In this document: positions 18,101-33,675 of the stretch, in pieces
Layout of the letters: each line of letters starts with the position of its first letter
Position numbering within the stretch: position 1 is the first letter of the stretch
Assembly: GCA_016935155.1 (NCBI GenBank)
Contig: JAFGRQ010000008.1
Location: forward strand, 1 to 34,113
DNA from: Candidatus Woesearchaeota archaeon
GTDB lineage: Archaea; Nanobdellota; Nanobdellia; Woesearchaeales; UBA10107
DNA length: 34,113 nt
Direction: 5' to 3'
Translations under genes and position numbers: made by a program
Notes under the pieces: generated by a model
What the model was told of the DNA's origin: nothing
What the model saw: the letters and a program-made list of their open reading frames with translations, nothing else
Database searches by the model: none

Positions 18101-18323
18101 CCAGGACGGAAAGAAATGGCCGGCTTCATCATTTAATTCAGAAACAAAAACATATACCATATCAAACTTAAAATTGGTTGGAAATACTTACAAAGAAACA
18201 GAGAACAATTTACAGCTTGTCTTCGAAGATGCAGCAGAAAATAGAATTACCCAAACAATAAGCATCGTAAAAGACAGAAGACCGCCTCATTTGGTAAGCT
18301 TGAGATTTACGAGAATAAATTAG
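12195..18323 (+). CDS. Giant secreted adhesin-like protein (about 2042 aa) with carboxypeptidase-regulatory-like domains and many Ig-like repeats
   Basis: Signal peptide 'MTKIRLVLVLLVLFFPIFLLFNVHAQ'. CarboxypepD_reg-like 'ISGTVKDSSGKAVPNAQVKFDGK' and 'TIQGNVLKYSDNSPISGALVEILYA...DANGFYSISVLKAGDYNIKASG'. Recurrent Ig-like boundaries 'DDTGPEI', 'DDEPPTT', 'FDGVPPEL', 'HDSVGPNL', 'IRDIEPPEA', 'DTTPPVLG', 'KDRRPPHL'. Confidence 0.85.
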   Translation: MTKIRLVLVLLVLFFPIFLLFNVHAQDLACCIDIPNSNICVPTNLDGASCEGTVYPYLCENVPGNLCEYACKTCVEGQTKILVYGRVVEGCSGVDANGDSIPVLENAEVESFQLGVTQEECFEQDVPAAGTEILPTTVSGHVYYNGNGVIADVYCTGDSDKSGSDGSYSLSCRDGTPGVVTAYYGQLTGQSKIINFPSLTPVMNSALTDITIQEETESSVLVSVSDPEEKPVSGANIVFTVSGTSYSQTHTTESKGTWLFTDVPRGIGTATVYVTAADQGYADATRDGVLISKAYQEVLIQLRTGELVTIQGNVLKYSDNSPISGALVEILYASNSQRAAYDYTDANGFYSISVLKAGDYNIKASGSGFTSTIEHYVSTRDYSDHDILLRTEEETAELENAQFRLKAVKRGTSTGISGITFTVKRIIPTEGPSINSPPTNTNGEATIPGMNLGTYDIVAAHANEFYYPGYASCSLQDSSDECIVEMDEVPIITISGTVKDSSGKAVPNAQVKFDGKVYDTNDMGLFATGSFSFTDRLRATDRAISAYDLDGKYIREHDEVEGGEDGPFVFNFVLLETLCNSEGDSGEIVIDEPLNVDKNEITFSWLADCNADAFRIFRSEGSEDIDDAVLIEPYLEGKIKSFGDVVEPSTGAGKTYCYFVQGDYFGGKATPTIITSEPVCAKIADEECFFGDKEFCGDDGLRYKCINGEKIPEETQCALGETCMEEESFTGSSTTTCVEIRNCEMCNRPFGVFAYRTGTGSLFGGKAFPAPVFVFDRRYPEFESTEFYCDVDGVPCYKDVSSTVVEKNYPCSFATSLEGSEEYFLRAIDSCYDYMSEEACNANKCLKSEKCEWKDDSGAYKELGIGVCVPEEEKRTCSAFNQRSPVANDVFAAGSTARILCSLYAEDCYLSDTTGECLSKDEIACSDYNSIEDCIGEGDETAIIDVNVTWKLTSILPEKVFGDNKILQNSNDKFEIGICQYSSKDFGCIRNADNLSEDTNEYDGPDCPIGDRECLSDNIPPKTNIPIMITKGGPVILPYYVSDDRYSELDIETYFRKTTKGIVLYPVLPLTRSTALSLTEDESPYTITYFSKDPAENLEEVHVLNLVVDDTGPEITRRFVVDPNLDANTVSLTILLELPEYRDGGIGSLNDAAAYCINDEQTGLFMESTNEKLDDLYLSDTTMDGEFRDKWFSSYINIPTYNSETSTQGINVVYKYKCFDAAGNLAGGCAGNICQKRLRLDADGTISNPQPNDEAVPSRENVEISIETLLKGECRFSNQSNNQFSTWNLFSETGETATKTDNGYLHRSVVNVLSSGESSSEKHETFHVACLFEGLNGYVRGNLADYVEVTVDDEPPTTRIIDFTKGTEIYPDSSASGPSTSVWVNGPNLELVCEDYPMPYSPPESGCRNIYLCSGDDCNKESDDGSFIPAIPGSMILEFYSDDILGNKEQRKSVSIRFDGVPPELILASPFDSNFETNQKDVLLNINIDNLGQETALEPNGCTGGEGCEISPLSSDGVNYSVFVDSGIQHHNERLYDVPTSALRDTSITLNGAFVELVENKKNRVEIFTKDAAGNVGISVVTVIHDSVGPNLTEAVFKQSIAGELEQTNSPIVDSGDSMILYVENVKDEKPGTGKLSSRVDQVWAEDMFGAEYLMQRISQGSEYWRVIVPTQNWPVTSANFQTYLKISANDTLGNIAERRLDFTIRDIEPPEAEVVVENKYGDAIDTIVGGENFIIVSATEPLYNITLNMVASGNQGPGKFPVTFIARDYESITWVGTFAVPEGYEGMLHPEGEMYDLNGVKSLLPPFTFYTRPASLYVHSPAKEQPAPQGITPVNGVYIVDGIKDPYWSNLLLEREYQMSVNGKYYDVKDSGETNPINLPVLSLGENLVTIRSEDGDGNYEIIQQRVSVTGVEADAPKTDTTPPVLGGNPILSDDVQRINGTLVIKEQNLALISGTAGAETSSVYLIGQDGKKWPASSFNSETKTYTISNLKLVGNTYKETENNLQLVFEDAAENRITQTISIVKDRRPPHLVSLRFTRIN

Positions 18324-18339
18324 GGGGGTTAATTTCATA

Positions 18340-21300
18340 ATGAAAAGGACTATCCTTTTGCTTTTATTTGGCATGTTCTTAATTTCTGTAGCTCACGCGG
18401 TGGGAACAATAACAGTAACAGACACCGTCCGGCCGGAAATCAAGGCAACATTTAATGAAACGGTTCAGGAGCTGAGGGTTGGAGATTTTGAGTTAAGGTA
18501 CACTGCAGACGATTCAGTTATTGATTTAACAAACTCGACAGAGGACAACAGAACATTTATTTTCGTTCCCAAGACGTCGCTAAGAAACGGATTTTATACA
18601 TTTTGGGTCAATGCCAAGGATTTGATTGGAAATCCAAAAACTTTTGAGCAGAATATCGCAGTCAACATAAACAAGACAGACATTTATTTTAAGGAGCCGA
18701 TAACAGGATTTTCAAGCAAACCAAAATACAACATAATTCTCGGAACAAGCAGAGATGCGATGTGCAGATGGAGTTACTTCAATATTCCTTACAACTTGAT
18801 GCTTGCTAATTCTTTTTCAGTAACCGGAACAGAATCTGCAATGGTTACTGACCACACAATAAAAGATTTTCCCGTTTCTGCAAGCGGAGTGAGTCCCGAG
18901 GCTTTTAATTCAGACGGAAGAGAAACACTTCCTTACATTTATGTGGCATGTATTGATAAGTTGGGTTTGAACGTGAGCAAAAAAATGTACACGGGGTTTG
19001 ATGAAAGCGGTCCAGTTGTAAGCCTCAAAGAAGCAACAACCCCTGTAATAAAAACTCCTCCGACATCAAAAATAACAACGGATTCGCAGTATGACAGAAT
19101 TTTTTGTTCAATAAACAACAATCCTTTCAGCACGCAGTCAAAATTAGACATAGCAACATATGTCCGTTCCCCTGTTCATAATATAATCTACGATCCGCCG
19201 GATACAGATTCAAATGGGGAATACACTTACACGATTATTTGCGAAAATTTAGCAGGAACGCAGGCAGCTCCAATTACACAAAAAATAGTCGTTGATACAA
19301 AAGATGCCCTTTCGATAAATATAGTTCTGCCGAATGCATACATTCAGCCGGTCACAAATGCTATTCTGCAAGTAAAAGCAGAAACAAACAAAGAGGCAGA
19401 ATGCGAAGCATACTTGGATGATTATGAAGATGAAACAATTCTTGTTGCAGATGCAGAAACAGGAACTGTGCATACAAAATCAATAAGCACAATGAAATCT
19501 TTAACAATAGGAGAAATCGTTATTCCCGGAACTGCAAAAAACATTTTTCTGAATGGAACACATTATTTGCGTGTGTGGTGCAAAAGCAATTATGCCGGAT
19601 TTGAAGATTTTGCGGAGGAGACAAAAAAAATCACAATAGATACATCGGCGCCGTCCACTCCAACAATAAACGCAACAGCATGCGAAGATGACGAAATTGA
19701 CATACTATTGAAATCTTTCGATAATGAATCAGGAATTGTCGGCTACAACTATACTTTAACGGGTCCAAACGTATCATTGACAAATAAATTCAGCGCCACG
19801 GGAGAAATCACAGAAACAGGATTAAAGCTCTCTTTGGGCGGGCAGTACAGAATAACAGCATTCTCGATGAATGGAGCAGGAAAAACATCGAGTGTTTCAA
19901 GCCCACATTCCTTTACATTCAATCCCAATACAACAATAGCTTGCATGGAGAAGGACCCGCCGTACGTTACATACAACATTACAAATACATCTTTCGGAAG
20001 AACAGTAAGATTGATATGTTTGGATGAATCTGGGTGCTTAAGTTTAAAATACAATACAGGAACTACAAACTGTTCGCCGACAAAATCAGGAAGTGTAATA
20101 GATTTGACTGCTCCAGACACGATTTGTTACGAGGCAATTGACAGAGCTCAAAATGTCAAGGTTGGTTCGTTCAATATTCTGTTCACAGCAATCGGTTCAA
20201 CTTGCTTTAATACAAAACAGGACGGTTCTGAAACAGATGTTGATTGCGGAGGAAACTGTCCAGGCTGCAATGTAAATCAAAAATGCAAAGGAGATGCAGA
20301 CTGCGCAGAAAGATGGTGCGTAGATTTTATCTGCAAGAAACCTTTGTGCACAGACAAAATAAAGAACGGATTCGAATCTGATGTTGACTGCGGAGGAAAA
20401 ACATGTCCTGGCTGCGCAATAAACAAATCTTGTGTTCTGTTCAGCGACTGTGCAAGCAACTATTGCAAGGATGGAAAGTGCGCTCCGTCGTCATGTATGG
20501 ATGGAATAACAAACGGACTGGAAACAGATGTTGACTGCGGAGGCACGGTTTGCCTCAAATGCTCGGGCGGCAAGAGCTGCAGCAAAGATTCTGACTGCAC
20601 ATCCGGCTCGTGCTATTATGGTTCATGTTCTGGAAAAGAATCTTTCGAGGAATGGGCGCTCAAAAATGGAATAGACCCCGAAGATAAAGATGGAGATGCT
20701 GACGGCGACGGACTGACTAATTATGAAGAGTATCAGCATAATACAGATCCAAAGAACAAAGATACTGACGGCGATGGATATTCTGATAAAAGAGAAATAG
20801 ACGCCAAAACAGATCCGCTTGATGAGTTTGATTTTCCAGTCTCAAAAGTTGGAAGATTTCTTCTTTTGTTTATTGGAATTTTAATTCTTGTAACAGGACT
20901 TTTGATGCTTTATTATTTCAAAGCAGACAAGCAGACAAGTTTGAATATAATCATCATAGGAGGAGCAACTTTGCTAATTCTGCTTTTCGACTGGATGATT
21001 TTCACGATGCCTTCGTTTGTGCATTATTTGCTTGCAGTTTTATCTCTCGGAGGAGCAGGCTATTTGATTTATTTGCACAAAGATGAATTGGAATCGCTTT
21101 TTCAAAAACCCGGAATGATTTTACCGCAGCAAGGATCTCCATCTCAGCAGATGAAAAAACCGGAGGACAGAGGTCCAACAAAAGAAGAAATAGATGAAGC
21201 AAGAAGATTGGCGGAAGAACTGAAAAGGGAAAAAGCGCTCAGGGAAAAGCAAAGAAAGGAGTTGTTCGAGAAATTCGGCGGAGAGCCAAAAGACAATCCA

Positions 21301-21726
21301 GAGATGAAGAACAAGGAACTAGCCAGGCAAAATAAAAACATTCAGATAAAATCCCTTCCAAAATTTAAAAAATTCAAAAAAGAAGAAACTCAAAAACCAA
21401 TTCAAAAGAGAAGAGAAGAATCTGCGGTTGAAAGGCTTTCAAACCTAAAATCAAAAGGCTCCCTAGACACGCTTTCAAAATTAGAAAAGTCAGGCAAAGG
21501 AATGAGCGACATTGAAAGATTAACCAAAAAAAGAGACGCTTTCGAAAAACTCGGTTCAATATCAAAATCGAATTTGAACGACGTTTTCAGCAAGCTTCCT
21601 TCAATAAAGAAAGAAGAAAAGAAGGAAGGAATGAAAAAAGAAACAGATAAAGAAGAGAAAAAGCCGGCCGAATCGGCAGAAAAAACAAAAACCCAAAATA
21701 AAAAACAAAAATCCAAATCAAGGTGA
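18340..21726 (+). CDS. Large surface protein with Ig-like domains, Cys repeats, TSP type-3-like Ca-binding repeats, three C-terminal TM helices and a K/E-rich cytoplasmic tail
   Basis: Signal peptide 'MKRTILLLLFGMFLISVAHAV'. Three 'ETDVDCGG.CPGC..N..C' repeats. 'DPEDKDGDADGDGLTNYEEYQHNTDPKNKDTDGDGYSDKREIDAKTDP'. TMs 'VGRFLLLFIGILILVTGLLMLYYF', 'LNIIIIGGATLLILLFDWMIF', 'FVHYLLAVLSLGGAGYLIYL', then about 200 charged residues. Confidence 0.85.
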   Translation: MKRTILLLLFGMFLISVAHAVGTITVTDTVRPEIKATFNETVQELRVGDFELRYTADDSVIDLTNSTEDNRTFIFVPKTSLRNGFYTFWVNAKDLIGNPKTFEQNIAVNINKTDIYFKEPITGFSSKPKYNIILGTSRDAMCRWSYFNIPYNLMLANSFSVTGTESAMVTDHTIKDFPVSASGVSPEAFNSDGRETLPYIYVACIDKLGLNVSKKMYTGFDESGPVVSLKEATTPVIKTPPTSKITTDSQYDRIFCSINNNPFSTQSKLDIATYVRSPVHNIIYDPPDTDSNGEYTYTIICENLAGTQAAPITQKIVVDTKDALSINIVLPNAYIQPVTNAILQVKAETNKEAECEAYLDDYEDETILVADAETGTVHTKSISTMKSLTIGEIVIPGTAKNIFLNGTHYLRVWCKSNYAGFEDFAEETKKITIDTSAPSTPTINATACEDDEIDILLKSFDNESGIVGYNYTLTGPNVSLTNKFSATGEITETGLKLSLGGQYRITAFSMNGAGKTSSVSSPHSFTFNPNTTIACMEKDPPYVTYNITNTSFGRTVRLICLDESGCLSLKYNTGTTNCSPTKSGSVIDLTAPDTICYEAIDRAQNVKVGSFNILFTAIGSTCFNTKQDGSETDVDCGGNCPGCNVNQKCKGDADCAERWCVDFICKKPLCTDKIKNGFESDVDCGGKTCPGCAINKSCVLFSDCASNYCKDGKCAPSSCMDGITNGLETDVDCGGTVCLKCSGGKSCSKDSDCTSGSCYYGSCSGKESFEEWALKNGIDPEDKDGDADGDGLTNYEEYQHNTDPKNKDTDGDGYSDKREIDAKTDPLDEFDFPVSKVGRFLLLFIGILILVTGLLMLYYFKADKQTSLNIIIIGGATLLILLFDWMIFTMPSFVHYLLAVLSLGGAGYLIYLHKDELESLFQKPGMILPQQGSPSQQMKKPEDRGPTKEEIDEARRLAEELKREKALREKQRKELFEKFGGEPKDNPEMKNKELARQNKNIQIKSLPKFKKFKKEETQKPIQKRREESAVERLSNLKSKGSLDTLSKLEKSGKGMSDIERLTKKRDAFEKLGSISKSNLNDVFSKLPSIKKEEKKEGMKKETDKEEKKPAESAEKTKTQNKKQKSKSR
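20203..20640 (+). repeat. Region coding three tandem Cys-rich repeats (C..G.ETDVDCGG..C..C....C....DC.....C)
   Basis: Translation: CFNTKQDGSETDVDCGGNCPGCNVNQKC.., CTDKIKNGFESDVDCGGKTCPGCAINKSC.., CMDGITNGLETDVDCGGTVCLKCSGGKSC.. Confidence 0.75.
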
Positions 21727-21730: not shown

Positions 21731-22285
21731 ATGAAAAAGGCAGAAATCACGTCGCAAATATTCATTTACATCATGGTTCTTATTGTTGGAGGAGGAATAC
21801 TTCTTTTCGGATACAAAGCAATAGCGCATTTTACCTCAACAGCGGATGAAACAATGATGATAAAATTCACCAACGATTTTAAAAATGACATAAAAACACT
21901 TTCTTATGGCCAGCAAAAATCAGAGACATATTATGTTCCAAGCTTTGTGAAGCAGATTTGTTTCAAAGGAAGAAGTCTTCCTGCAGATGAAGCGCAGTCA
22001 TATGTGCAGGATGAAATAAGCTATCAATCAGGCAGAAATAAAGATTATTCTTATGTTCAGATAGAGAATTCAATCAGCCAGGATTTAAAGGAAAATGTTT
22101 ATTTTTATCCAAAAGGAACACCCTTCTTTTCGGGCAAGGACATTGACTTGGATGAAGCATCCCGGCAGCCGCCGGTCAGACGCTCCGAAACACTTGAATT
22201 TGCTTGCTTTGATGTAATCGGGGGTTCATTCAAAATAGTAATGAACGGCCAAGGAAGTTCTGTTCTTCTAACGGAGAGTAAATGA
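21731..22285 (+). CDS. Pilin-like protein, class III-like N-terminus
   Basis: 'MKKAEITSQIFIYIMVLIVGGGILLFGYKAI' followed by a soluble ectodomain. Confidence 0.8.
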   Translation: MKKAEITSQIFIYIMVLIVGGGILLFGYKAIAHFTSTADETMMIKFTNDFKNDIKTLSYGQQKSETYYVPSFVKQICFKGRSLPADEAQSYVQDEISYQSGRNKDYSYVQIENSISQDLKENVYFYPKGTPFFSGKDIDLDEASRQPPVRRSETLEFACFDVIGGSFKIVMNGQGSSVLLTESK

Positions 22286-22290
22286 AGTAA

Positions 22291-23424
22291 ATGAAGAAAT
22301 CTCAAATTGAAGTGCAATTCAACTGGATTTTTGTTCTCATTGTCGGAGCAATTCTGTTGACTTTTTTTGTAACAATCGCTCTCAAGCAAAAATCAACATC
22401 AGAGACAATAATAAAGTCAGAGAGTTTCGACGCATTTAATACAATTCTCTCGTCAATCTCTTCGCCGGAAGGCTCTGCAACATCGCCAGTCAAGTTTTCG
22501 GACGACATCGGATATTACTGCATAATAGAAGACCCCTGTATTTGCCAGATTTATTCCGGAAAGAGAACGCAGCCGAGTGCCCTGCTCTTCACAGATGATT
22601 TGTTCATATTTTCTCAAGAGAATCTAAAGGGATTGTACAAAATAGTTTCAAGCAAAGAGTGGACCTTCCCATTCAGAATTGCAAATTTCATTTTCATAAT
22701 CTCTCCTGAAATAAAGTATTTTATAGAGGACACGTTTTTCGGCCAAACAATATTTTATGGGATGCCTCCTGAAACAATTTTAGAGGAGGATGCCGAGTAC
22801 AAGGCAGTAGACAAGGAGCTTTTCAATCCGAATGAGTTTTCAATAACCTCCGGAAACTACAAAGTAAGGTTTGTATTTACAGAAACAAATCCTGAAGATT
22901 TTTCCATTCCAGAAGAAATAAGAGGCTCTGACACCGATGTTTCTGCAGTTTACTTCACAACGGAAAATAGCGCAGACGTAGTTAAATTTTATAAAAAAAG
23001 CAAAAGCGACCCATCAAAATTTTCTTATTCGGACGAGTCTTTTATTTTTGGAGATGCAACAACATATGCTGCGATATTCTCCGAAAACAAAGATGATTAT
23101 GCATGCATGATGAATAACGCGTTCAAAAGATTTATGGCAGCAGCGGAAATAATGAAAGAAAAGCAAATTATTTATCGAAGTCAAGAACAGTTTGGCTGCA
23201 GTTCAGAAAATACATTAGGATTAGAATCAATACAAACAGAAGTAAGTTCAAGTGTGTGTTGCACAAGTTACGACACACATGCATCAAGCAGTCTTTTGAA
23301 AATTTCAATAGATATGTTTAATTTGCAGGACTATGATTCTTACCTTTCAGTTAAGAGAGAAATCTCAGCACTGAATTCGCAGAATGACAATGCAGTCAGA
23401 AACGGGTGCCCAAATTTATATTAA
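22291..23424 (+). CDS. Pilin-like protein, class III-like N-terminus
   Basis: 'MKKSQIEVQFNWIFVLIVGAILLTFFVTIALKQ' plus an about 340-aa ectodomain with Cys (CICQ, SVCCTS). Confidence 0.8.
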   Translation: MKKSQIEVQFNWIFVLIVGAILLTFFVTIALKQKSTSETIIKSESFDAFNTILSSISSPEGSATSPVKFSDDIGYYCIIEDPCICQIYSGKRTQPSALLFTDDLFIFSQENLKGLYKIVSSKEWTFPFRIANFIFIISPEIKYFIEDTFFGQTIFYGMPPETILEEDAEYKAVDKELFNPNEFSITSGNYKVRFVFTETNPEDFSIPEEIRGSDTDVSAVYFTTENSADVVKFYKKSKSDPSKFSYSDESFIFGDATTYAAIFSENKDDYACMMNNAFKRFMAAAEIMKEKQIIYRSQEQFGCSSENTLGLESIQTEVSSSVCCTSYDTHASSSLLKISIDMFNLQDYDSYLSVKREISALNSQNDNAVRNGCPNLY

Positions 23425-23453
23425 AAATTCAAACTAAAAATGAAAATTAAAAA

Positions 23454-23978
23454 ATGAAATACAAAAAAAACAAAAAAGCACAGGTACAGATGACAGAGAA
23501 TGTGATAATTCTTTTTATTTTCTTCATTCTTCTTGTATTTTCAATCGTTTTTTATACAAGACTGCAGACGGCAAAGATAGGAGATGTATCTACAGAAAAA
23601 GCAGAAATGGATGCCATAGAAATCGCACAAAAAGTTCTGTCAATGCCTGAACTTCAATGCTCTGTGCAAGGTGCCGCGACACCAGACTGCTACGATTTTG
23701 TATCTGTCAATGCAACAGCCTCTGCAATGGAGAAAAATCCAGATCTCGTAAACATATACTCTAATATTTTTAAATTTTCTACAATCACAATTCAGAAAAT
23801 TTTTCCAGAAAAAGATGAAGAAGTTTTTGTAATTTATGACAAAAAAAATGAAGAATTGCAAGACATAATGCCAACTTATTCGCCAATTATTTTGTGTGAG
23901 TATAGTCAAAGCAATTTCGGATACGGTCAGACAAGAATTTGCAGTTTCGGGGTGCTAAAAGTTGCAGTTTACAGCTAA
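23454..23978 (+). CDS. Pilin-like protein
   Basis: 'MKYKKNKKAQVQMTENVIILFIFFILLVFSIVFYTRLQTAK'. Confidence 0.8.
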   Translation: MKYKKNKKAQVQMTENVIILFIFFILLVFSIVFYTRLQTAKIGDVSTEKAEMDAIEIAQKVLSMPELQCSVQGAATPDCYDFVSVNATASAMEKNPDLVNIYSNIFKFSTITIQKIFPEKDEEVFVIYDKKNEELQDIMPTYSPIILCEYSQSNFGYGQTRICSFGVLKVAVYS

Positions 23979-24474
23979 AAAAGGACAGATGGAAATGATT
24001 GGACTTGCAATAATAGTTATTCTTATCGCTTTTGGAATGTTTTTCATAATTCGGTTTTCAGTGTCCGACCAGCAGGAGAGCATAACAAAAACAGTGCAGG
24101 TAAAGGAGCTGCCAAAAAATTTTTTGAATACCCTCTTGTATTCTGAAGCGGGATGTGAAGGAAGCTCGGCAACATTTACGAGGCTAATCGGAGATTTGGA
24201 AGATCCGTTGTCAAGCAGTCTCACCTGCGGAGGAAAATCGGGAGAAGATTTATTTTTTTATTTGAATGAAACCCTTAGTGATCTTCTCAGCCAAACGCTC
24301 GGTGAATGGGGACATAATTATGAACTACTAATAGATTTTCCTGACACGGCACCGATTGAAGAAAATGAGATTAGGATAACGAATATTTGTATCGGCGACC
24401 AAAAGGATTCAAGTCATTTCCCTTTTACGGGAGACTATGGGATGATAAGGGTCGTTCTGACAATATGTCACTAA
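23962..24474 (+). CDS. Pilin-like protein (TTG start, overlapping the upstream gene)
   Basis: '(M)QFTAKKGQMEMIGLAIIVILIAFGMFFIIRFSVSDQQ'. Only the TTG start at 23962 keeps the KKGQ motif. Confidence 0.75.
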   Translation: MQFTAKKGQMEMIGLAIIVILIAFGMFFIIRFSVSDQQESITKTVQVKELPKNFLNTLLYSEAGCEGSSATFTRLIGDLEDPLSSSLTCGGKSGEDLFFYLNETLSDLLSQTLGEWGHNYELLIDFPDTAPIEENEIRITNICIGDQKDSSHFPFTGDYGMIRVVLTICH

Positions 24475-24520
24475 CTGCCAAAGCAGTTCAAAAGCAGTCC
24501 ATCATGGTGATTTGAGTAAG

Positions 24521-24535
24521 ATTTATATATAAATA
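24521..24535 (+). promoter_or_regulatory. Putative TATA box for the 24564 gene
   Basis: 'ATTTATATATAAATA' about 29 bp before ATG 24564, in an 89-bp gap. Confidence 0.6.
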
Positions 24536-24563
24536 GGGGCTTTAAACCCCTAGAGGTGACTAG

Positions 24564-24839
24564 ATGAACAAGAAGGGCGTTGAAATTTCTATGAACGTTA
24601 TCATCATAGCTGCAATCGGCTTGATGGTTTTAGTTGTTCTTTCGGCGATATTCCTTGGAAGAATTGGTGTATTCAGCCAAAGTACTGCTGATTGCTCGAT
24701 ACAAGGAGGAATATGTGCAGAGCGTTGCGGCGATATTGATGTGGGGTCAGAGGATTACTTAACACCAAATCCATCGATAAAGTGCAAGCTTCCTGACGGA
24801 GAACCAGGAGTGTGCTGTTTGAAGGTAGCAACACAATGA
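24564..24839 (+). CDS. Small pilin-like protein with C-terminal CC motif (tandem paralogue 1)
   Basis: 'MNKKGVEISMNVIIIAAIGLMVLVVLSAIFLGRIG...GVCCLKVATQ'. Confidence 0.8.
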   Translation: MNKKGVEISMNVIIIAAIGLMVLVVLSAIFLGRIGVFSQSTADCSIQGGICAERCGDIDVGSEDYLTPNPSIKCKLPDGEPGVCCLKVATQ

Positions 24840-25129
24840 ATACAATCAAAGCAAAGCTTTGCTGTACCCATCGAAACAAGTTTCGATTGGGCAAAAAAGG
24901 AGCAGAAATGGCTTTGAATGTAATTATCATAGCAGCCATAGCTCTCGTTGTCATGGTCATTGTTCTTTTTATTTTCGGGAGCAAGTCATCAGACATATCA
25001 AAAACAACAGAAGATTGCGGGGCCAAATTTGGCGAATGTTTGCTCAAGGAAGATTGTATCGGCCGGCCAATCATATCGAATACAGACTGTGAAAAGAACG
25101 ATGAAGTTTGCTGCATTAAGCTCTCTTAA
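24836..25129 (+). CDS. Small pilin-like protein with C-terminal CC motif (tandem paralogue 2); start could instead be TTG 24887
   Basis: ATG 24836 overlaps the upstream TGA. Core 'GKKGAEMALNVIIIAAIALVVMVIVLFIFG...EVCCIKLS' matches the preceding protein. Confidence 0.75.
   Translation: MNTIKAKLCCTHRNKFRLGKKGAEMALNVIIIAAIALVVMVIVLFIFGSKSSDISKTTEDCGAKFGECLLKEDCIGRPIISNTDCEKNDEVCCIKLS
24850..24891. repeat. Two adjacent inverted repeats between the paralogues' conserved cores
   Basis: AGCAAAGCTTTGCT (24850-24863, perfect palindrome) and CCCATCGAAAC-AA-GTTTCGATTGGG (24867-24891, one bulge). Confidence 0.65.
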
Positions 25130-25157
25130 TTTTTCTTCTCCTTTTTCTTTTTTCTTA
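25129..25157 (+). terminator. Probable archaeal U-rich terminator
   Basis: Pyrimidine/T tracts 'TTTTTCTTCTCCTTTTTCTTTTTTCTTA' immediately after the stop codon. Confidence 0.55.
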
Positions 25158-25172
25158 TAAATCCCATAGATA

Positions 25173-25190
25173 CATTTAAATATATTTAAA
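25173..25190 (+). promoter_or_regulatory. Putative TATA box for the 25206 small ORF and downstream operon
   Basis: 'CATTTAAATATATTTAAA' about 16-33 bp upstream of ATG 25206, after the T-rich terminator. Confidence 0.55.
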
Positions 25191-25205
25191 AGCCATTTGT
25201 CTAAT

Positions 25206-25340
25206 ATGCAAAAGAGAGGCGGCAGAGGCATTCTAAACCATAAAGGGGACTCTGAAGTTCTCATCGTAGTCATCTTGATTTCAATGCTTTGTCTGCTTGT
25301 AATTGCAGCAATTTACGTAATGGTGAATAAGGCATCATGA
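25206..25340 (+). CDS. 44-aa single-helix pilin-like small protein (not in ORF track)
   Basis: My translation: MQKRGGRGILNHKGDSEVLIVVILISMLCLLVIAAIYVMVNKAS*. Good TATA upstream; its TGA overlaps ATG 25337. Confidence 0.7.
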   Translation: MQKRGGRGILNHKGDSEVLIVVILISMLCLLVIAAIYVMVNKAS

Positions 25341-26206
25341 GCAAAAAACCGAGCAAAAAGGCAGACGTCGCTTTCGAGAAACTTGTCGTAATCATTGCAG
25401 CATTTATTTTTTTGCTTGCGATGATTCCTGTTGTCAATTACATTCTTTCAAAAGACGAAGATGCCGCTAAATTGGTCTGTCACAATAGTGTTCTTCTGAG
25501 GCAAAAGGCAGCAGTGGATGTTCCGGTTATTGGAGAAGAAGGCAGTCCTCTTCTATGTCCAACAACAACCATGAAAATTTCAGGAAATGATGAAAAAATA
25601 AAGAGAGAAATTGCCAATTTGATAGCAGATACTTGGTGGCAGTTCGGAGAAGGGAGATTCGAAGATGTGCTGAAGGAAGGAACGGCAGGAGGGAAACACG
25701 AATGTGCAATTCGTTATGTTCTGCTCCTAAAAAATCCAGACTTTAAAATTTCGGCGAATGAATTCGCAAATTATCTTGCCAAAACAACATACAAGTTTGT
25801 AGCAGAAGAAGGTTCATATTATTCAACTGCAGACAAGCCAGTGACATATCTTGACTACATTCAAAAATCAGAAGGAGGAACAGGAAATATTTTTTTGTCG
25901 GATATAGAAGCTCCACAAACTTATGCGATTGCATTTGGCTCTCCAACTGTTAAACCGGGTGCATGGATTTCTGTTCCAGCGGGGGGCGGTGCAGTACTGA
26001 GTGCAGCTTTTTGCTTTATTCCGGCTGTTGGTTGGGCAGCGTGCGGGGGAGCTGTGGTAGTGGGTGCAGTGACCGGCGCATATTTCTTATCTGATGATGC
26101 GGGGGAAATCGCAGCAAAAATTTTCAGCGAAAGAGAGGTTTCATCAATATATGTTGTTCCTCTTGAAGAACTGATGAGGGGTGAGCACTGTGTCATGCAC
26201 AAGTAA
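25337..26206 (+). CDS. Pilin-like protein with a second, Gly/Ala-rich hydrophobic segment near the C-terminus
   Basis: 'MSKKPSKKADVAFEKLVVIIAAFIFLLAMIPVVNYIL' and 'PAGGGAVLSAAFCFIPAVGWAACGGAVVVGAVTGAYF'. Confidence 0.8.
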   Translation: MSKKPSKKADVAFEKLVVIIAAFIFLLAMIPVVNYILSKDEDAAKLVCHNSVLLRQKAAVDVPVIGEEGSPLLCPTTTMKISGNDEKIKREIANLIADTWWQFGEGRFEDVLKEGTAGGKHECAIRYVLLLKNPDFKISANEFANYLAKTTYKFVAEEGSYYSTADKPVTYLDYIQKSEGGTGNIFLSDIEAPQTYAIAFGSPTVKPGAWISVPAGGGAVLSAAFCFIPAVGWAACGGAVVVGAVTGAYFLSDDAGEIAAKIFSEREVSSIYVVPLEELMRGEHCVMHK

Positions 26207-26348
26207 AAAAGCAGATACGGGGCCGTTCTGGATTATTCTAACTATCATTTTAGCTCTGCTTTTCCTGCTCTGGCTGTTTTTTTACTCAGCATCGCTGAAA
26301 GATAAAATGATGGAAACCGTCAAGAATTTTTTCGGAGGGTTTCTATGA
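26181..26348 (+). CDS. 55-aa single-helix pilin-like small protein (GTG start at 26181 or 26190; not in ORF track)
   Basis: My translation: (M)STVSCTSKKADTGPFWIILTIILALLFLLWLFFYSASLKDKMMETVKNFFGGFL*. Overlaps the preceding gene; its TGA overlaps ATG 26345. Confidence 0.7.
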   Translation: MSTVSCTSKKADTGPFWIILTIILALLFLLWLFFYSASLKDKMMETVKNFFGGFL

Positions 26349-27085
26349 ACAGAAAAGGAGACATCAAGTTCATAATGTTTGTTATTTATCTGCTGATTGT
26401 TTTTGCTATATTGGCGTTTTTGATGCGCAATTTGGAGAAGGGAGTTGAAAAAATAACGCCGAATGCTGCCGAAAAACAGGAAGAAAGGACACAACTCCTC
26501 GATTTAACCCCCACAAAAGAATCATCCCAGATATTCAATAAAGTTGTCGGCGCTTTCAAGACGGCAAAAGACTCCCCAGTCTCACAATGTCTGGTTTTTA
26601 TGGATGAATTTTCAGACATTAAAAAATCGAATATAGAGATTTCATACCAAAAAAATGAAAAAGGAGAACTGATTTCATGGATTAAACTTGTTGATGATGA
26701 GGGAAGAATTTTAGAGTTCGAGGAAATTGCAATAAAACCATGCATTGTTGCAGGAAAAGAATCTGAAAATTTTTATGATTTAAATTTTAAAAATAAAGAC
26801 CAAGGAGAAGAAAAAGAATATCTTGAAGTTACATCGATTATAATTGCAGAGAAAGAAAAAATAATCGCAGACGGAATAAAATACGACATAGACGATAATG
26901 GCTGCTGTCCAAATAGCCCATATACAGACAACAAGAAAGTAAATCTTCTTTACAAACCAGATAAAGAACATGTTTGCTTTATTGCAACTAGAAGCGGAGG
27001 CAATTCATGCGCCGTCAATGAAAAAGCAATAGATGACGACTGCATAAGCGACGGAGATATTTTTTTAAGAATTAAAAAATGCTAA
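26345..27085 (+). CDS. Pilin-like protein
   Basis: 'MNRKGDIKFIMFVIYLLIVFAILAFLMRNLEKG' plus a Cys-containing ectodomain. Confidence 0.8.
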   Translation: MNRKGDIKFIMFVIYLLIVFAILAFLMRNLEKGVEKITPNAAEKQEERTQLLDLTPTKESSQIFNKVVGAFKTAKDSPVSQCLVFMDEFSDIKKSNIEISYQKNEKGELISWIKLVDDEGRILEFEEIAIKPCIVAGKESENFYDLNFKNKDQGEEKEYLEVTSIIIAEKEKIIADGIKYDIDDNGCCPNSPYTDNKKVNLLYKPDKEHVCFIATRSGGNSCAVNEKAIDDDCISDGDIFLRIKKC

Positions 27086-27104
27086 GGTGAAAAATGAAAA
27101 ACGC

Positions 27105-27119
27105 CAAACTAAAAGTTTG
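27105..27119. repeat. Small hairpin in the intergenic spacer
   Basis: CAAACT-AAA-AGTTTG between the 27085 stop and ATG 27146. Confidence 0.45.
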
Positions 27120-27135
27120 TCTATTTCGTTCGTAC

Positions 27136-27141
27136 GGAGGT
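27136..27141 (+). promoter_or_regulatory. Shine-Dalgarno sequence for the 27146 gene
   Basis: GGAGGT 4 nt before ATG. Confidence 0.6.
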
Positions 27142-27145
27142 ACTC

Positions 27146-27430
27146 ATGAAAAACAAAAAAGCGGAAGTTGACCCAATAAAAATTATCATGATTTTCGTGA
27201 TTCTGGCAGTTGTTGTTGCAATATTGATTTATTATTTCAACACACAGATAGGAAAATCAAAAGAAATTACGGAAAAACAGTTTGATGCGCTTGGAGACGA
27301 AGACGGCGACAATATCGCAAATTTCATTGACAAGTGTCCGGATGTTAAATCTCCGATGGGAAAACCGGAATTTGACGGATGCGCAGACCAGGCTGCATTG
27401 GATGCCGCAGAAAAGGCAGGAACAGAATAA
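27146..27430 (+). CDS. Small pilin-like protein with a TSP3/OmpA-type Ca-binding-like motif
   Basis: 'MKNKKAEVDPIKIIMIFVILAVVVAILIYYF' then 'DALGDEDGDNIANFIDKCPDVKSPMGKPEFDGC'. Confidence 0.8.
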   Translation: MKNKKAEVDPIKIIMIFVILAVVVAILIYYFNTQIGKSKEITEKQFDALGDEDGDNIANFIDKCPDVKSPMGKPEFDGCADQAALDAAEKAGTE

Positions 27431-28072
27431 ATGAGAACAAAAAGAAAAGCAGACATGACTTTGCAGAATCTTGTTTACATGATTTTGTTCGTTATTCTGT
27501 TTGGTTCACTGGCTTTGGGAGCTGCAAACAAGCTGAACGCGGCAATAATCAAGCAGGGAACAAGAGATTTTACCTCATTGAATGAACTGATTGATGATGT
27601 CGTCAAGAAAAAAGACATAGGAACAACTCTCGGAATGCCGTTTTTTATGGAAAAGGATTCTGCTGTTGTATTTTTTAAAAGCGACGAAGTTTATTTTGAA
27701 TTTACCGAACAGTTAGAAATTATAGCTGGCGAATCTACTGTGTCAACAAATCCGAGCTATAAAATAAAAAAACCAGATAGAGAAGGAAATATCTTGTGTT
27801 TGTGCAGAGAGCTTGAAAATGTCAAAATAGACAGCAAAAAATCATCAGAATATCTTTGTTCTGACAGCATATGCTATGAAATAAAAGATGTCAATATCCT
27901 CTTCAGTGTAACCGATTGCAAGACAAGAAATTATGATTGCGTGGATAAAAACGGAGACAGGATTTTGCTTAACGGATTTGATATCGTTTCAAAATATGCA
28001 AAAGAAGGCCAGGATATTTTTGTAAAAAAAACAGACGGAAAAACAGTAACAATACTGAGAGAAATTAAGTGA
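27431..28072 (+). CDS. Pilin-like protein with Cys-rich ectodomain
   Basis: 'MRTKRKADMTLQNLVYMILFVILFGSLALGAANKL'; ILCLC, YLCSDSIC, DC..RNYDC. Confidence 0.8.
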   Translation: MRTKRKADMTLQNLVYMILFVILFGSLALGAANKLNAAIIKQGTRDFTSLNELIDDVVKKKDIGTTLGMPFFMEKDSAVVFFKSDEVYFEFTEQLEIIAGESTVSTNPSYKIKKPDREGNILCLCRELENVKIDSKKSSEYLCSDSICYEIKDVNILFSVTDCKTRNYDCVDKNGDRILLNGFDIVSKYAKEGQDIFVKKTDGKTVTILREIK

Positions 28073-28503
28073 TTTTGATGCAAATCAATAAAAGGGGTGT
28101 AACGCAGCTTCTAATGCTTTTCGAGCTAGTTATTGCAGTCATCGTGATAATTGCAATGGTCGGTGTCGCAAAGAATACTGTTTCAGGAGCGAAAGTTTCA
28201 GAAAAATTCATTGCAAAGGATGCAGCACTGATGGTTGATGCTTTGCATGCCTTGCCGGGAGATGCTGTTGTTAATTATGTTGCCGTAAATATCCCTGAAC
28301 AAAAAACAATTTTGGTTTTGGGGGGATTTCTAAAACTAATTTCTGATGATGAAACAGCAATATTGGGTGCAATTAGCACACCCTACAGAGAATCAACGTC
28401 AATTTCGATAGCCGAAAATAGAGTAAGTCTCATTCCGAAGCAGACAAACACCATTATTTTTGACAAAGAAGGAAGCACAATTTCTTTGAGGCACGGGGAA
28501 TAA
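28069..28503 (+). CDS. Pilin-like protein (GTG 28069 or ATG 28078 start)
   Basis: 'MQINKRGVTQLLMLFELVIAVIVIIAMVGVAKN'; overlaps the upstream stop. Confidence 0.8.
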   Translation: MILMQINKRGVTQLLMLFELVIAVIVIIAMVGVAKNTVSGAKVSEKFIAKDAALMVDALHALPGDAVVNYVAVNIPEQKTILVLGGFLKLISDDETAILGAISTPYRESTSISIAENRVSLIPKQTNTIIFDKEGSTISLRHGE

Positions 28504-28974
28504 ATGAAACTACCGAAAAAAGCAAGCTTCGAAATCGGAGGAAAAGCACTGTTTTTTGTATTCGCTCTTATATTTTTCACTGCATTGTTTTTTGGAATAA
28601 AATGGATAATTTTTGATTTGGATGCTGCGACGCTGTTTGCACATGATAATGCATATATTGACAGTTATGTCGAAAGATTCGTGGGGACATCCGGCTGCTT
28701 TGCTCATGTTGACTCTCAGACAGGAAACATATATTCTGGAATAATAGACGCTTCAAAATTCACGCAGGACAGATTAAATTCCTGCTATCTCGAAAACTCA
28801 GGCTCCCCGTATGAATTCTTTTTGACATTGCAGTACAATGGGATTGAGGAAAAAATCGCGAGCGAAAATTACAAAATCAGGGATAAAGAATATCCCATCC
28901 TTGTTTTAGTTTATGACGGCGGAAAAATGTATTCAGGGAAACTGTTGGTTGGTGTCGGAGGTTTAGATGAATAA
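28504..28974 (+). CDS. Pilin-like protein
   Basis: 'MKLPKKASFEIGGKALFFVFALIFFTALFFGIKWI' plus an ectodomain. Confidence 0.8.
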   Translation: MKLPKKASFEIGGKALFFVFALIFFTALFFGIKWIIFDLDAATLFAHDNAYIDSYVERFVGTSGCFAHVDSQTGNIYSGIIDASKFTQDRLNSCYLENSGSPYEFFLTLQYNGIEEKIASENYKIRDKEYPILVLVYDGGKMYSGKLLVGVGGLDE

Positions 28975-29533
28975 AAAGGGGCAGCTAATCTTTGATGCAG
29001 GGGATTTGATTTTTTCTGTTGTAATACTTGTTGTTGTGCTTTTTTTCCTCGGATTTTATGTTGGCCTTCAAAAAGATGCAGTGAAGGAAAAGGCCGAGGA
29101 GAAAACAACAATTCTTTCGCAGGACAGATTTGTTTTGGATTATTTAATGATGCCAGTAAGCGACACAACATATGTAAGAGAAAAAAGATATTCCGGTTTG
29201 CAGGAAAAAGAAATTGAAACTATGAAAGAGCAAAAAATGATTATTGCAGATTTATTCTTGATAATAGGAAATGAACCGGAGTATTCCCAGAGAAGAGCGC
29301 TGGCGGACATTTATGCGATAGGAGAAAGCCGCCAAAGAACATTCGAATTATTGAGAAGTATAACCGGAGCGGAGCAGTCATTGGCATTTTATGACATAAT
29401 TGCTCTATATCCGAGCGGAAAGCAGGACATAATACGTTCTGGAGGATGTTCAATGGGGATTATCTCAACGGCATACATTCCGATGGAAAACGGAAAATCA
29501 ATGGCGGTGCAAATAAAGAAATGCAACAAGTGA
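28967..29533 (+). CDS. Pilin-like protein
   Basis: 'MNKKGQLIFDAGDLIFSVVILVVVLFFLGFYVGLQKDAVKEKAEEK'; overlaps the upstream gene by 8 bp. Confidence 0.8.
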   Translation: MNKKGQLIFDAGDLIFSVVILVVVLFFLGFYVGLQKDAVKEKAEEKTTILSQDRFVLDYLMMPVSDTTYVREKRYSGLQEKEIETMKEQKMIIADLFLIIGNEPEYSQRRALADIYAIGESRQRTFELLRSITGAEQSLAFYDIIALYPSGKQDIIRSGGCSMGIISTAYIPMENGKSMAVQIKKCNK

Positions 29534-32500
29534 ACAAAAAAGCAGGCGTAGTGCTCACCATGAGTGTTTTCGGATTTCTGATAGTTGTCGGTCTCATCTT
29601 TATGTGGCTGTCAGTGGAAAAAGTGGACGACTTTATTGGAAACAAACAGCTCAGTTTACTGATGCTTGGAAAAGACGCAGAAAAAGCGCAATTTTTTATT
29701 GAAAGGAGTGCGGATGTCGCAGCTAAAAATGCTCTATATGAGACGGTAAGCGATGCGTCAAGCTGCGGAACATATTTAGGTTATATGAGGCTGGGCAGCA
29801 CCTGTGCAGTTAATCTCGATGATGTAAAACAAAAGTATTTGGCAAACTTCAAGACAGAATTCGACAAAGTGCTTCTGACATATACCAAGGCAAATCTATT
29901 CAAAGAGAATTATGACATTTCATTCAGCGAATCTTCGAGCAAGTCTTCGTCAACAACACAAGAACAAGAAAATGCAGCGCAGGCAGGCAGTCCGAAAATG
30001 GAGTGGCCGGTGAATGGAATGATTTCTTCGTGTTTTGGGTATAGAAATCTTGCCGGAAAAAGGCAGTGGCATGACGGAATAGATATTTATGCTGCAGAAA
30101 ATACAGACGTTAAGGCGCCAGCTGACGGCGTAGTTGAAAAAATATGCTCTGATTGGACCGGTGCATGTGCCTGCAGCATTTTTGACAAGAATTGCCCGTC
30201 TTCCTGTGATGGAAAATGCGGAAATTACGGAAATTATGTTATAATAAAGCATAGCAATGATTTATACACGAGAATGAGCCACTTGAAAGAAGTTTTAGTG
30301 AAGGAAGGAGACAAAGTAATGGGGGGTGATGTTGTTGCGAAATCAGGAAACACAGGTTCATCAGAAGGTCCGCATCTGGACTTTAAGGTTTATTTAAGCA
30401 GCGACTTTACTGCAGACGTTGGAGAAGGAACATATGACAGAAATCCTCTGTGCTATCTTCCTGAAATCCCTCAAGAAATGTTTCTGAAAGAAGTTGCAGC
30501 AAGCTGTTATGATGAAGACGGAACAGGAATTCAGTTCTGCTCCGGAAAGGGAAGCACAGATTCAATTTCTTTGAGAGGAATCGCAAAACTGCCTTTTGTT
30601 TTTGGAACAGGAGTTATTTTCAAGGATGTTAAAATGACCGCTTACAGAGTTTCATTGGAATCTGATTACGATGTTTGGTCAACAGGAGAATTACCAACAG
30701 AAAAAGGACAAAGAGAAGGAACGGGATTTTGTTCGATTAGCGAAAGCAAAAGAGGGTTCTATGAAGATGTTTTGTGTCAAGGAACTGGTTTGGGTATAAA
30801 TGGAGATTATTATTATTATGAAACCATTACTCACTCAAAAGAAACCAGTCAAATCGGAACAAAAAAACAAACAGCATCAGGAACAGACTTGGTCGCTCAC
30901 AGAACAGCTGCAGTTTCGTTCGATATGATTCCGAAAGGTTCAACAATAAAAATAACATACAAGGATTGTCAAGACCAGGCGTGCTGTGATTCTTGGAGCG
31001 GAATTTATGTCGCAGAAGATACCGGTGGTGCGATGATTGCCGATTGGAAAAAAGGAATACCTCACATTGATGTTTTTGCAGGATATGGAGAAGCTGCATC
31101 AAAAGAAGCATCATGCATAGGCCTTGCAAAAGCAGATGTTGAAGTTATTTCTTCCGCAGCAGACGTCTCAAATCACGAGGGGAGCATGCAGTATTATCTG
31201 AAATCAAATTTCTTCGCAACCCTGGATTATTCTTTCAGTGAATTCAGCCAAGTAATTTCGGACTTGAACTTAATTTCAGAGAAAGTTTCAAAGGAGTGTT
31301 CAGGGGGAGATAAAACAAACTGCATTTCAAACAAATTGAAGGAAAAAAGCGCAGAACTAAAATTGAAATGGACAGCATCCTGTGATACTCCGGAAGAAAG
31401 TGCATTCAATTATTTGGTTGAAGGAATAACGTTGTGCCTGAACTCAAATAAAGAAGGATACTGTGAAATTCCGCTGACCGCCGAAATGAGAGCAAACATA
31501 AAAATTGCTCGCGACGCTGCAGCAAACACCATGCAGATAAAAACAGATTCTGCATCAGAAAATATCGCGCAGGGGTATCCTACTCATTCATTCTTCAAAG
31601 AAGATAAGTTTGAGTCAACGACTTGCGAAGAGATGGAACTGGATATTCAAAACAAAAGAGCAGAAATAAAATGCACGAGCGGAGGAACACGATTTTCTGC
31701 AAACTACGATGGAAATATTGTTCTGTACAACAAATTGAGCCCGGAGGAAAAATTAAGTACGCTGAGCTTTTTAACAGGAAATTTTGACAAAAACAAATTG
31801 ACAAAAATAGAACTTTCTTCGGAAGAATACAGAATTTGCGCCCAGTCAAAATTCATTTTATTTATGAACGGAATCTTCGAACCTTTGATTTACAAGGTCG
31901 CATTCTCTCCAGAGGACAAAGTTCCTCCGGAAAAAGCAGGATTTGATATAAAAGCAAAAGAGAATGCAGATTCTGTCATGATTGTCGAGATAACGAAACC
32001 CGCAGAAGGAGCATCGGTTTATGAAGTATATTATTCTGAAATCAAATTCAGCGACATTTCGGGTGCAGTATTTCTTGATAAAATGCAGACAGAAAAAGAA
32101 TTTGCAATGACAAAAGCAGGTTCATATTATTTTGCAGTAGTTCCTGTCGATGAAAAAGGAAACAAAGAGACAGTCGTCGAATCTGTCTTGGCCGAAGCGA
32201 AGGATAACCTGAGGCCTGGCCCGGTTTTGGGGTTGACTGCCAGTTTGGTTGAACCTATTGATGAAATACGCCCATCATTCAATTTAGAAATAGTGAAACC
32301 GACAAAAAACACAGATGATTCGGACTTAACGGATTTGAGAGGTTATTCTTTTTTCCTTTCCGAGGCAATAGGAGATTCTTGCTCACTTTCAGATGCATCA
32401 ATCGCAATAAATAATGCACTAAATACAAGAATAACACCAATTTCCGGCAATTTAGACTCGGCGGTTATTCAAATCTCAAATAAGGACAAGGCATACTGCC

Positions 32501-32583
32501 TATTAGTCATCGCGGAAGACGAAAATCAAGACGCAATTTCCGAATCTCGATATTCTGAAGAAAGCATTGTTTTGCTGAAATGA
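29530..32583 (+). CDS. Pilin-like N-terminus fused to an M23/LytM-like domain, a 3D (Asp-Asp-Asp) domain and an FN3-like C-terminus
   Basis: GTG 29530 overlaps the upstream TGA (ATG 29521 also possible; the track start 29446 is too far upstream). '(M)NKKAGVVLTMSVFGFLIVVGLIFMWLS'. M23-like 'CFGYRNLAGKRQWHDGIDIYAAENTDVKAPADGVVEK...NYVIIKHSNDLYTRMSHLKEVLVKEGDKVMGGDVVAKSGNTGSSEGPHLDFKVYL'. 3D-like 'MTAYRVS...DVLCQGTGLGING...VSFDMIPKGSTIKI...IYVAEDTGGAM...HIDVFAGYG'. Confidence 0.85.
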   Translation: MNKKAGVVLTMSVFGFLIVVGLIFMWLSVEKVDDFIGNKQLSLLMLGKDAEKAQFFIERSADVAAKNALYETVSDASSCGTYLGYMRLGSTCAVNLDDVKQKYLANFKTEFDKVLLTYTKANLFKENYDISFSESSSKSSSTTQEQENAAQAGSPKMEWPVNGMISSCFGYRNLAGKRQWHDGIDIYAAENTDVKAPADGVVEKICSDWTGACACSIFDKNCPSSCDGKCGNYGNYVIIKHSNDLYTRMSHLKEVLVKEGDKVMGGDVVAKSGNTGSSEGPHLDFKVYLSSDFTADVGEGTYDRNPLCYLPEIPQEMFLKEVAASCYDEDGTGIQFCSGKGSTDSISLRGIAKLPFVFGTGVIFKDVKMTAYRVSLESDYDVWSTGELPTEKGQREGTGFCSISESKRGFYEDVLCQGTGLGINGDYYYYETITHSKETSQIGTKKQTASGTDLVAHRTAAVSFDMIPKGSTIKITYKDCQDQACCDSWSGIYVAEDTGGAMIADWKKGIPHIDVFAGYGEAASKEASCIGLAKADVEVISSAADVSNHEGSMQYYLKSNFFATLDYSFSEFSQVISDLNLISEKVSKECSGGDKTNCISNKLKEKSAELKLKWTASCDTPEESAFNYLVEGITLCLNSNKEGYCEIPLTAEMRANIKIARDAAANTMQIKTDSASENIAQGYPTHSFFKEDKFESTTCEEMELDIQNKRAEIKCTSGGTRFSANYDGNIVLYNKLSPEEKLSTLSFLTGNFDKNKLTKIELSSEEYRICAQSKFILFMNGIFEPLIYKVAFSPEDKVPPEKAGFDIKAKENADSVMIVEITKPAEGASVYEVYYSEIKFSDISGAVFLDKMQTEKEFAMTKAGSYYFAVVPVDEKGNKETVVESVLAEAKDNLRPGPVLGLTASLVEPIDEIRPSFNLEIVKPTKNTDDSDLTDLRGYSFFLSEAIGDSCSLSDASIAINNALNTRITPISGNLDSAVIQISNKDKAYCLLVIAEDENQDAISESRYSEESIVLLK

Positions 32584-32676: not shown

Positions 32677-33675
32677 ATGAATATTCCATACGAGGAAGTA
32701 GCTGCCAAGATAATGAAGGATGCAGGTATTTCTGAAAATGAACTCAATGAAAAAATAGAAGAAAAAATGCAGCAATTGTCTGGTTTAATTTCCAAAGACG
32801 GCGCAGCACACATTATTGCAAATGAACTAGGCGTCAAAATCATAGAGCAATTTTCGGGAAAAGTTTCTGTAAACAAAGCATTTCCAGGAATGCATTCAAT
32901 CAGTCTTCTTGTCAAAGTACAGAAAGTTTTTGATGAAAGAACTTTTGACAAGGGGAACAGAAAAGGAAAGGTAAGATCATTCACAGCAGGAGACGAAACA
33001 GGAACAACGAGAATTGTTGCGTGGAATGATTTAGTTGATAAAATTCAAACATTGAAAGAAGGAGACATAGTTCAAATTGATGATGCTTATGTGAAGGAAA
33101 ACAACGGACAGAAAGAAGTCCATCTGAATGACAAGTCAAAAATAGAGATAAACCCGCCCGGAGAAAGTGTCGGGGAAGTTAAAATCACACAGATTCAAAG
33201 AAACAGAAAAAAAATAGAGGCCCTGCAGGATAATGAAGCAAATGTAGAGATTTTAGGAACGATAGTCCAAACTTTCGAGCCAAGATTCTTCGAAGTTTGC
33301 CCTTTCTGCAACAAGAGAGCAAGAAACGTTCAGGGGGAAGGAGAATTTGTCTGCGAGGAGCATGGAAAAGTCACTCCGAAATATTCTTTTGTGCTGAATG
33401 CAATCATTGATGACGGAACAGGAACAATAAGGGCGGTATTCTTCAAGAATCAGGCAACAAACCTGACAGGAAAAACAGAAGAAGAGCTAGTTTCAATGAA
33501 GGAAAGCACAGAAAAAGTTGAACAGTTAAAGACAGATTTGCTTGGGGAAATTGTAAAAGTGATAGGCAAAGTAAACAAGAACACAATGTTCAACAGATTA
33601 GAGTTCGTTTCTCAGCTCGTGTTTAGGAATCCAGACCCAGAAGAAGAATTAAGAAGGCTGGAAGGACAAGCTTAA
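32677..33675 (+). CDS. rpa: Replication protein A / OB-fold ssDNA-binding protein
   Basis: OB-fold signatures 'VRSFTAGDETGTTRIVAWNDLVDKIQTLKEGDIVQIDDAYVKENNGQKEVHLNDKSKIEI' and zinc ribbon plus OB 'CPFCNKRARNVQGEGEFVCEEHGKVTPKYSFVLNAIIDDGTGTIRAVFFKNQATNLTG'. Confidence 0.85.
   Translation: MNIPYEEVAAKIMKDAGISENELNEKIEEKMQQLSGLISKDGAAHIIANELGVKIIEQFSGKVSVNKAFPGMHSISLLVKVQKVFDERTFDKGNRKGKVRSFTAGDETGTTRIVAWNDLVDKIQTLKEGDIVQIDDAYVKENNGQKEVHLNDKSKIEINPPGESVGEVKITQIQRNRKKIEALQDNEANVEILGTIVQTFEPRFFEVCPFCNKRARNVQGEGEFVCEEHGKVTPKYSFVLNAIIDDGTGTIRAVFFKNQATNLTGKTEEELVSMKESTEKVEQLKTDLLGEIVKVIGKVNKNTMFNRLEFVSQLVFRNPDPEEELRRLEGQA

Follow-up and report, generated by a model that had tools for sequence, protein, structure and literature searches.

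Candidatus Woesearchaeota archaeon contig JAFGRQ010000008.1 was analyzed over a stretch of 34,113 nucleotides (the window), in which one gene codes for a large pilin-like protein bearing two domains of murein hydrolase type. On balance, this protein is probably a modular pilin-like carrier that presents murein hydrolases extracellularly against the peptidoglycan of a bacterial partner or prey. Comparison of homologous sequences indicates that the carrier and its locus are conserved, that the enzymatic loads are exchanged, and that the active sites are mostly intact; both display outside the cell and a bacterial substrate are likely. The parts of the carrier are as follows.

29530 to 32583, + strand: carrier gene (M23 plus 3D, MltA-like), 1017 amino acids, from a GTG start to the stop at 32583
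29530 to 29967, + strand: N-terminal carrier domain (ND), in which a class III-like start (KKAG) and a single hydrophobic helix precede about 110 amino acids with conserved G37, C79, C92, and P94
30004 to 30459, + strand: LytM/M23 domain, assigned by Pfam, a motif table, and a structure model with its PDB matches
30070 to 30072, 30082 to 30084, 30280 to 30282, and 30373 to 30375, + strand: M23 site residues H181, D185, H251, and H282, respectively
30145 to 30219, + strand: Cys-rich insertion within M23 (C206, C213, C215, C222, C226, and C230), common in the alignment to genus-mate L035 and to L036
30379 to 30381, + strand: D284, at the position where canonical M23 has its second zinc His
30724 to 31098, + strand: 3D/MltA-like domain with a QGTG motif, assigned by Pfam, relatives, alignment, and a profile compared with MltA structures
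30922 to 30924, 31018 to 31020, and 31069 to 31071, + strand: 3D aspartates D465, D497, and D514, all three intact
31150 to 31398, + strand: second conserved core domain (CD), downstream of the inserted hydrolase domains, assigned by profile
31915 to 32355, + strand: C-terminal region, tentatively related by blastp to stretches in other carriers, some of which weakly match fibronectin type III

The loads are diverse among the 77 carriers searched with Pfam, and include M23 (22 carriers), SLT (18), Amidase_2 (5), NlpC/P60 (4), M74, 3D, M15/VanY, and CHAP (2 each), and Amidase_3 and a VgrG3-like C terminus (1 each); there are few off-theme domains (fn3 in 4, metallophosphatase in 2, and TPM in 1). 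This protein served to find the first 17 loci, which are thus biased toward M23 and 3D, and enrichment was therefore measured in 60 later loci, selected from the list of ND matches by family spread and contig size and blind to load. A hydrolase domain is present in 36 of these 60 carriers and in 11 of 75 adjacent downstream genes, compared with 1 of 594 other open reading frames (ORFs) of at least 150 amino acids. M23 domains are also found outside the carrier locus, in 153 of the 353 genomes of the order in all, which lends some weight to a caution in the preliminary description that such domains could be widespread elsewhere; the association with this locus is nonetheless very strong.

Load types change at least 24 times among loaded carriers on a carrier tree built with the loads left out, the backbone of which is weak, such that only well-supported pairs are used. 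Among these, the protein described here (M23 plus 3D) is sister to L044, which has Amidase_2 on the carrier and 3D in the next gene (support 97/89), L095 (M23) to L098 (NlpC; 99/98), and L048 (M23) to L089 (SLT; 100/98). The same carrier holds different effector modules in its relatives, the hallmark of a modular pilin, and the carrier is conserved across order and class, with the enzymes swapped on it, beyond what could be seen in the preliminary description. The catalytic Glu of SLT is kept in all 32 aligned domains, as are the NlpC Cys (9 of 9) and His (11 of 11), and 18 of 27 M23 sites are canonical; of the rest, five have an Asp variant, one has Tyr for the first His, and three (L047, L049, and L085) are fully degenerate.

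The exchange takes place on a conserved core. The ND profile, built from the first ∼145 to 160 residues, matches in 284 of the order's 353 genomes (and in 153 of its 180 best), nearly always in single copy, and in 211 of 378 genomes in a mixed sample of other orders of the class. ND is a previously undescribed domain, with no meaningful match among solved structures (best E value 0.16, rejected) and none among phage records. The N terminus, VNKKAG followed by a hydrophobic stretch, satisfies the leader rule [KR][KRN][GAS], as do those of 73 of the 77 carriers; the class III-like start reported in the preliminary description is thus borne out and is followed by one hydrophobic helix, and ND may adopt a pilin fold. 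The CD profile still matches here (E = 3.9e-6) when this protein and its genus-mate are left out of the training set. The carrier of related orders is mostly ∼250 to 290 amino acids long and consists of ND then CD. Of the loaded carriers, 27 have the load between ND and CD, 7 have part of it after CD, and in 18 CD was not found; the median distance from ND to the first hydrolase is 42 amino acids. At loci where the carrier lacks CD, it is mostly found in the next downstream gene (13 within 1.5 kb and 4 others on the same strand), and the CD profile matches outside carriers are genes downstream of CD-less carriers, all on the same strand. These locations show that the core is ND-load-CD, sometimes as two genes divided at the load.

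In 8 of 20 loci from related orders, a different gene of the pilin-like block also bears a hydrolase domain: M23 in L152, L154, and L158 (all three with SLT on the carrier itself), 3D in L162, SLT in L168, L169, and L170, and an Amidase_2-like domain in L163. Hydrolase loads are thus not confined to the carrier gene.

The carrier closes the block of pilin-like genes, which are arranged as follows.

21731 to 29533, + strand: block of ∼12 small proteins, each with one helix and a class III-like N terminus (KKG/KKA/KRG)
21731, 22291, 23454, 23962, 24564, 24812, 25337, 26345, 27146, 27431, 28069, 28504, and 28967, + strand: gene starts in the block

This terminal position was recognized in the preliminary description and recurs in relatives: over 61 loci of the order, the class III-like motif marks 279 of the 349 genes on the upstream side of ND compared with 6 of the 266 on the downstream side. 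The genome also encodes a prepilin peptidase and an assembly ATPase for class III proteins. An A24 prepilin peptidase is found here (E = 1.2e-14) and in 57 of 60 relatives searched, and this model settles the question of the peptidase, the Arc_PepC_II match being below cut-off (E = 0.066). A T2SSE ATPase is coded at G000:C1, adjoining a protein that resembles FlaJ/TadC by eye.

Both hydrolase-type domains named in the preliminary description hold up. The M23 domain matches PF01551 with an E value of 6.9e-23 (81.1 bits against a curated cut-off of 28.7), and is predicted to adopt the LytM beta fold. Its AlphaFold model, for which the alignment had 53 rows and the relatives were 52 viral M23 domains, has a mean predicted local distance difference test score (pLDDT) of 76, with ∼90 or more over most of the core, and its top PDB matches are the M23/LytM proteins NMB0315, ShyA, DipM, EnvC, and LytM (E values to 4e-11). 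The complete M23 site (HxxxD, H, HxH) is absent in that the last motif is GPHLD, with Asp284 replacing the second His of HxH. This Asp variant, with the other four residues kept, is also seen in L037, twice in L043, and in L096, and in 2 of the 52 viral domains; in the genus-mate L035, the His is canonical and a 3D domain is absent. We therefore class the domain as an M23 fold with a variant site and unsure peptidase activity. It also matches NCBIfam NF052336 (E = 1.3e-13, below the cut-off of that model), which is named for an HSB1 locus, a name pointing to the strain of the Woldo enzyme (PMC12352652). A genome-wide peptide-pattern search for relatives gave just two gammaproteobacterial M23 genes.

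The 3D domain matches PF06725 barely above the cut-off (E = 4.2e-5; 24.1 bits against 23.8). The assignment is firmer than this score because the 3D domains of relatives are far above cut-off (E = 1.8e-11 and 4e-10) and a profile of six 3D relatives has MltA as all of its top three solved matches (best E = 4e-5). A QGSG-type motif lies upstream, and this motif and the three aspartates are shared with MltA. A check for the double-psi beta-barrel with a single-sequence model gave a pLDDT of only 31, too low to interpret, and two scans for further 3D relatives returned none. MltA is ∼350 amino acids long compared with ∼125 here, where recognition is limited to the 3D half and a brief segment upstream of it.

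We propose that the N terminus of the carrier would insert into the membrane and probably be cleaved by the A24 prepilin peptidase, and that the ND helix could then enter a type IV-filament-like assembly formed from the remaining pilin-like products of the block. The hydrolase domains between ND and CD would thereby be exposed outside the cell, where, at the site of contact, they could open the murein of a bacterium acting as partner or prey. In this species the load combines a domain of M23 endopeptidase type with an MltA-like lytic transglycosylase, and other murein hydrolases fill the slot in relatives. We infer enzymatic activity, extracellular display, filament assembly, a tip position, a bacterial partner, and a benefit from attachment, wall penetration, nutrient uptake, or killing.

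The nature of the loads bears on the substrate. SLT enzymes cleave MurNAc-GlcNAc bonds, whereas amidases and M23, M74, and M15 enzymes cleave murein stems and bridges, and the polymer common to all of these is bacterial murein; pseudomurein has unlike sugars and amino acids. At least seven unrelated murein-acting families are present at the locus in relatives, mostly with intact sites, and of the roles considered in the preliminary description, by far the strongest support is for attack on or penetration of the wall of a partner. Several observations weigh against presentation of murein hydrolases by a pilin-like carrier. The pilin-like call is made by a simple motif and hydrophobicity rule, which is also satisfied by 91 of 302 ORFs lying on the opposite strand or at a greater distance, and the canonical pilin Glu at +5 is absent here, with VVLTMSVF following KKAG. 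No hydrolase is recognized on or beside the carrier in 20 of the 77, and members of the CHAP, M15, and M23 families may act on non-murein substrates. Asp284 of this protein and the three wholly degenerate M23 domains in relatives add to these, and some loads may bind or be structural.

This last point can be extended to the domains as a whole, which could be chiefly binding or structural modules, with the carriers acting as adhesins that grip bacterial walls without cleavage. The loss of the zinc His here and in four other M23 domains fits such a role, as do the degenerate sites; inactive LytM domains are known as EnvC-type regulators, and bacterial modular pilins mostly bear binding modules (PMC8179133). 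We nonetheless consider it unlikely, as the catalytic residues are kept throughout the aligned SLT and NlpC domains and in two-thirds of M23 sites, and the three 3D aspartates of this protein are intact. The suggestion of a structural module made in the preliminary description thus suits a minority of copies (3 of 27 M23 domains are fully degenerate) but not the remainder.

Surface-bound scavenging, in which dead bacterial walls are digested for food with no contact machine and the pilin-like N terminus is just an anchor, is improbable. The genomes are very small and free-standing hydrolases do exist, including SLT proteins outside the locus and a DUF333-M23 lipoprotein-like protein in this genome, but an anchor needs no such locus, with its close linkage to a long conserved pilin-like run and one carrier per genome. 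The DUF333-M23 protein is the second M23 gene of the genome (G000:C42, L151:3960-4748, − strand; E = 6.7e-19), and has a lipobox-like N terminus (FLLLVACTKQ) and an HLHF motif.

Remodeling of the archaeon's own envelope, another early suggestion, in which the enzymes loosen the cell cover for pilus passage or division, would suit genes in a pilus-like operon and recalls the dedicated murein hydrolases of bacterial trans-envelope machines such as the VirB1-type of type IV secretion, but is very improbable, since neither this genome nor 58 of 60 relatives has a penicillin-binding protein (PBP) transpeptidase domain (a search that did not extend to Mur ligases), the unrelated SLT, amidase, M74, and M23 folds share murein, which archaeal S-layers lack, and frequent load exchange is ill-suited to a constant self-substrate. 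The PBP transpeptidases of the two other relatives (G011:C1:1062871-1063686 and G048:C263:5644-6258, one in a single-contig genome) may reflect transfer or another function.

Extracellular presentation of murein hydrolases against bacteria could be part of something larger. It is possible, and we put this forward tentatively, that an order-wide and probably class-wide contact machine is at work, in which a filament-like apparatus with a single dedicated carrier and swappable murein hydrolases breaches the walls of living bacteria, and that most members are episymbionts or predators of bacteria by a previously undescribed mechanism. Hosts and contact mechanisms have been established for few DPANN archaea, and bacteria are suggested as the targets of this group by a near-universal single gene whose load indicates the polymer acted on. 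The carrier is a single protein that could be labeled in a search for partners, and its loads provide dozens of enzymes for parallel expression and assay.

The gene itself lies in an archaeal setting. The coordinates in the preliminary description are correct, and the GTG at 29530 overlaps the stop of the preceding gene by 4 nucleotides (GTGA). An RPA-like gene begins 93 nucleotides past the carrier gene, and one also follows the carrier in loci of the order, often less than 100 nucleotides away, and in related orders. It is a conserved downstream neighbor, outside the apparatus.

32677 to 33675, + strand: RPA-like OB-fold gene, assigned by Pfam, with the same neighbor in most loci of the order and in related orders

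The source genome is 771 kb in 59 contigs and 90% complete, and belongs to an order with 88 families in the genome set. RPA, RNase P p30, and the 771-kb genome are archaeal markers of the setting, the GC content of the carrier gene resembles that of neighboring genes, and the carrier gene is archaeal. A phage or mobile-element location was rejected for a single-copy, syntenic gene adjoining RPA, and bin contamination was rejected on the same grounds together with the matching GC content.

Several other features of these loci are of note. Directly upstream of the pilin block are four very large surface-type proteins (3729 to 8903, 8908 to 12075, 12189 to 18323, and 18340 to 21726) of 1055 to 2044 amino acids, with DUF4215, SdrD_B/SpaA/CarboxypepD_reg, and TSP3 repeat domains; the 8908 to 12075 protein opens with MKKGQLTIFIILGL, which is class III-like. 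Within the block, 24564 to 25129 codes for a tandem pair of small Cys-rich pilin-like proteins (MNKKGVEISMN... and LGKKGAEMALN...), which end near CCLK/CCIK and are likely paralogues. Elsewhere, the sister carriers L118 and L124 have a metallophosphatase domain where others have a hydrolase, and their neighboring genes code for NlpC or for amidase/M15 plus GDSL lipase; single proteins beside carriers combine GDSL lipase, Amidase_2, and M15 (L124:9691-12660) or polysaccharide deacetylase, NAGPA, and VanY (L108:9280-13224). Hydrolase-less carriers of 330 to 790 amino acids are L111, L115, L120, L126, L127, L129-L132, L135-L137, L139, L140, and L144, and their extra regions might be undescribed wall-active domains.

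Murein hydrolases have been described in archaea of this kind. Large murein-type lytic transglycosylase proteins (fam00969) occur in Woesearchaeota and Pacearchaeota and are linked to bacterial walls (PMC8204110), and murein transglycosylases are reported in other Woesearchaeota metagenome-assembled genomes (PMC9723730). The organisms, the SLT-type domains on large extracellular proteins, and the proposed bacterial-wall target of fam00969 are alike, but it is one family with one enzyme type, and the accessible portion of that report does not describe the carrier, the pilin block, the fixed locus, or the exchange of at least seven families. Archaeal peptidoglycan hydrolases that kill bacteria include Woldo of Halogranum salarium, presented with a survey that includes Nanoarchaeota (PMC12352652). 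These are likewise archaeal M23 enzymes aimed at bacterial murein, but they are secreted and have separate wall-binding domains, whereas here the carrier is pilin-like and no wall-binding domain was recognized.

Phage tail-tip and tape-measure lysins and VgrG3 type VI spikes similarly have a conserved delivery part with swappable murein hydrolases at the point of contact, and carrier L134 has the VgrG3-like C-terminal domain. However, no phage or secretion-system structural genes were recognized in this locus, and the carrier is pilin-like and matches no phage records.

The closest parallel to the carrier, the locus, and the exchange of loads, no description of which was found in the open literature (which omits most subscription papers), is with the modular type IV pilins of bacteria, such as PilB of Streptococcus sanguinis, GspK, and ComZ, which have grafted or inserted modules (PMC8179133). 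These have in common with the present protein a small one-helix carrier with a large module, placed inside the pilin module in ComZ and GspK, different modules per species on the same carrier type, and a proposed tip position. They differ in that the carrier is archaeal, has an ND-CD core with no recognizable sequence relation to a solved pilin, has loads that are nearly all murein hydrolases, which the available part of that work does not name, and occurs once per genome at a locus fixed across an order. The modular-pilin idea is thus extended to archaea, with a lytic load and unusual breadth.

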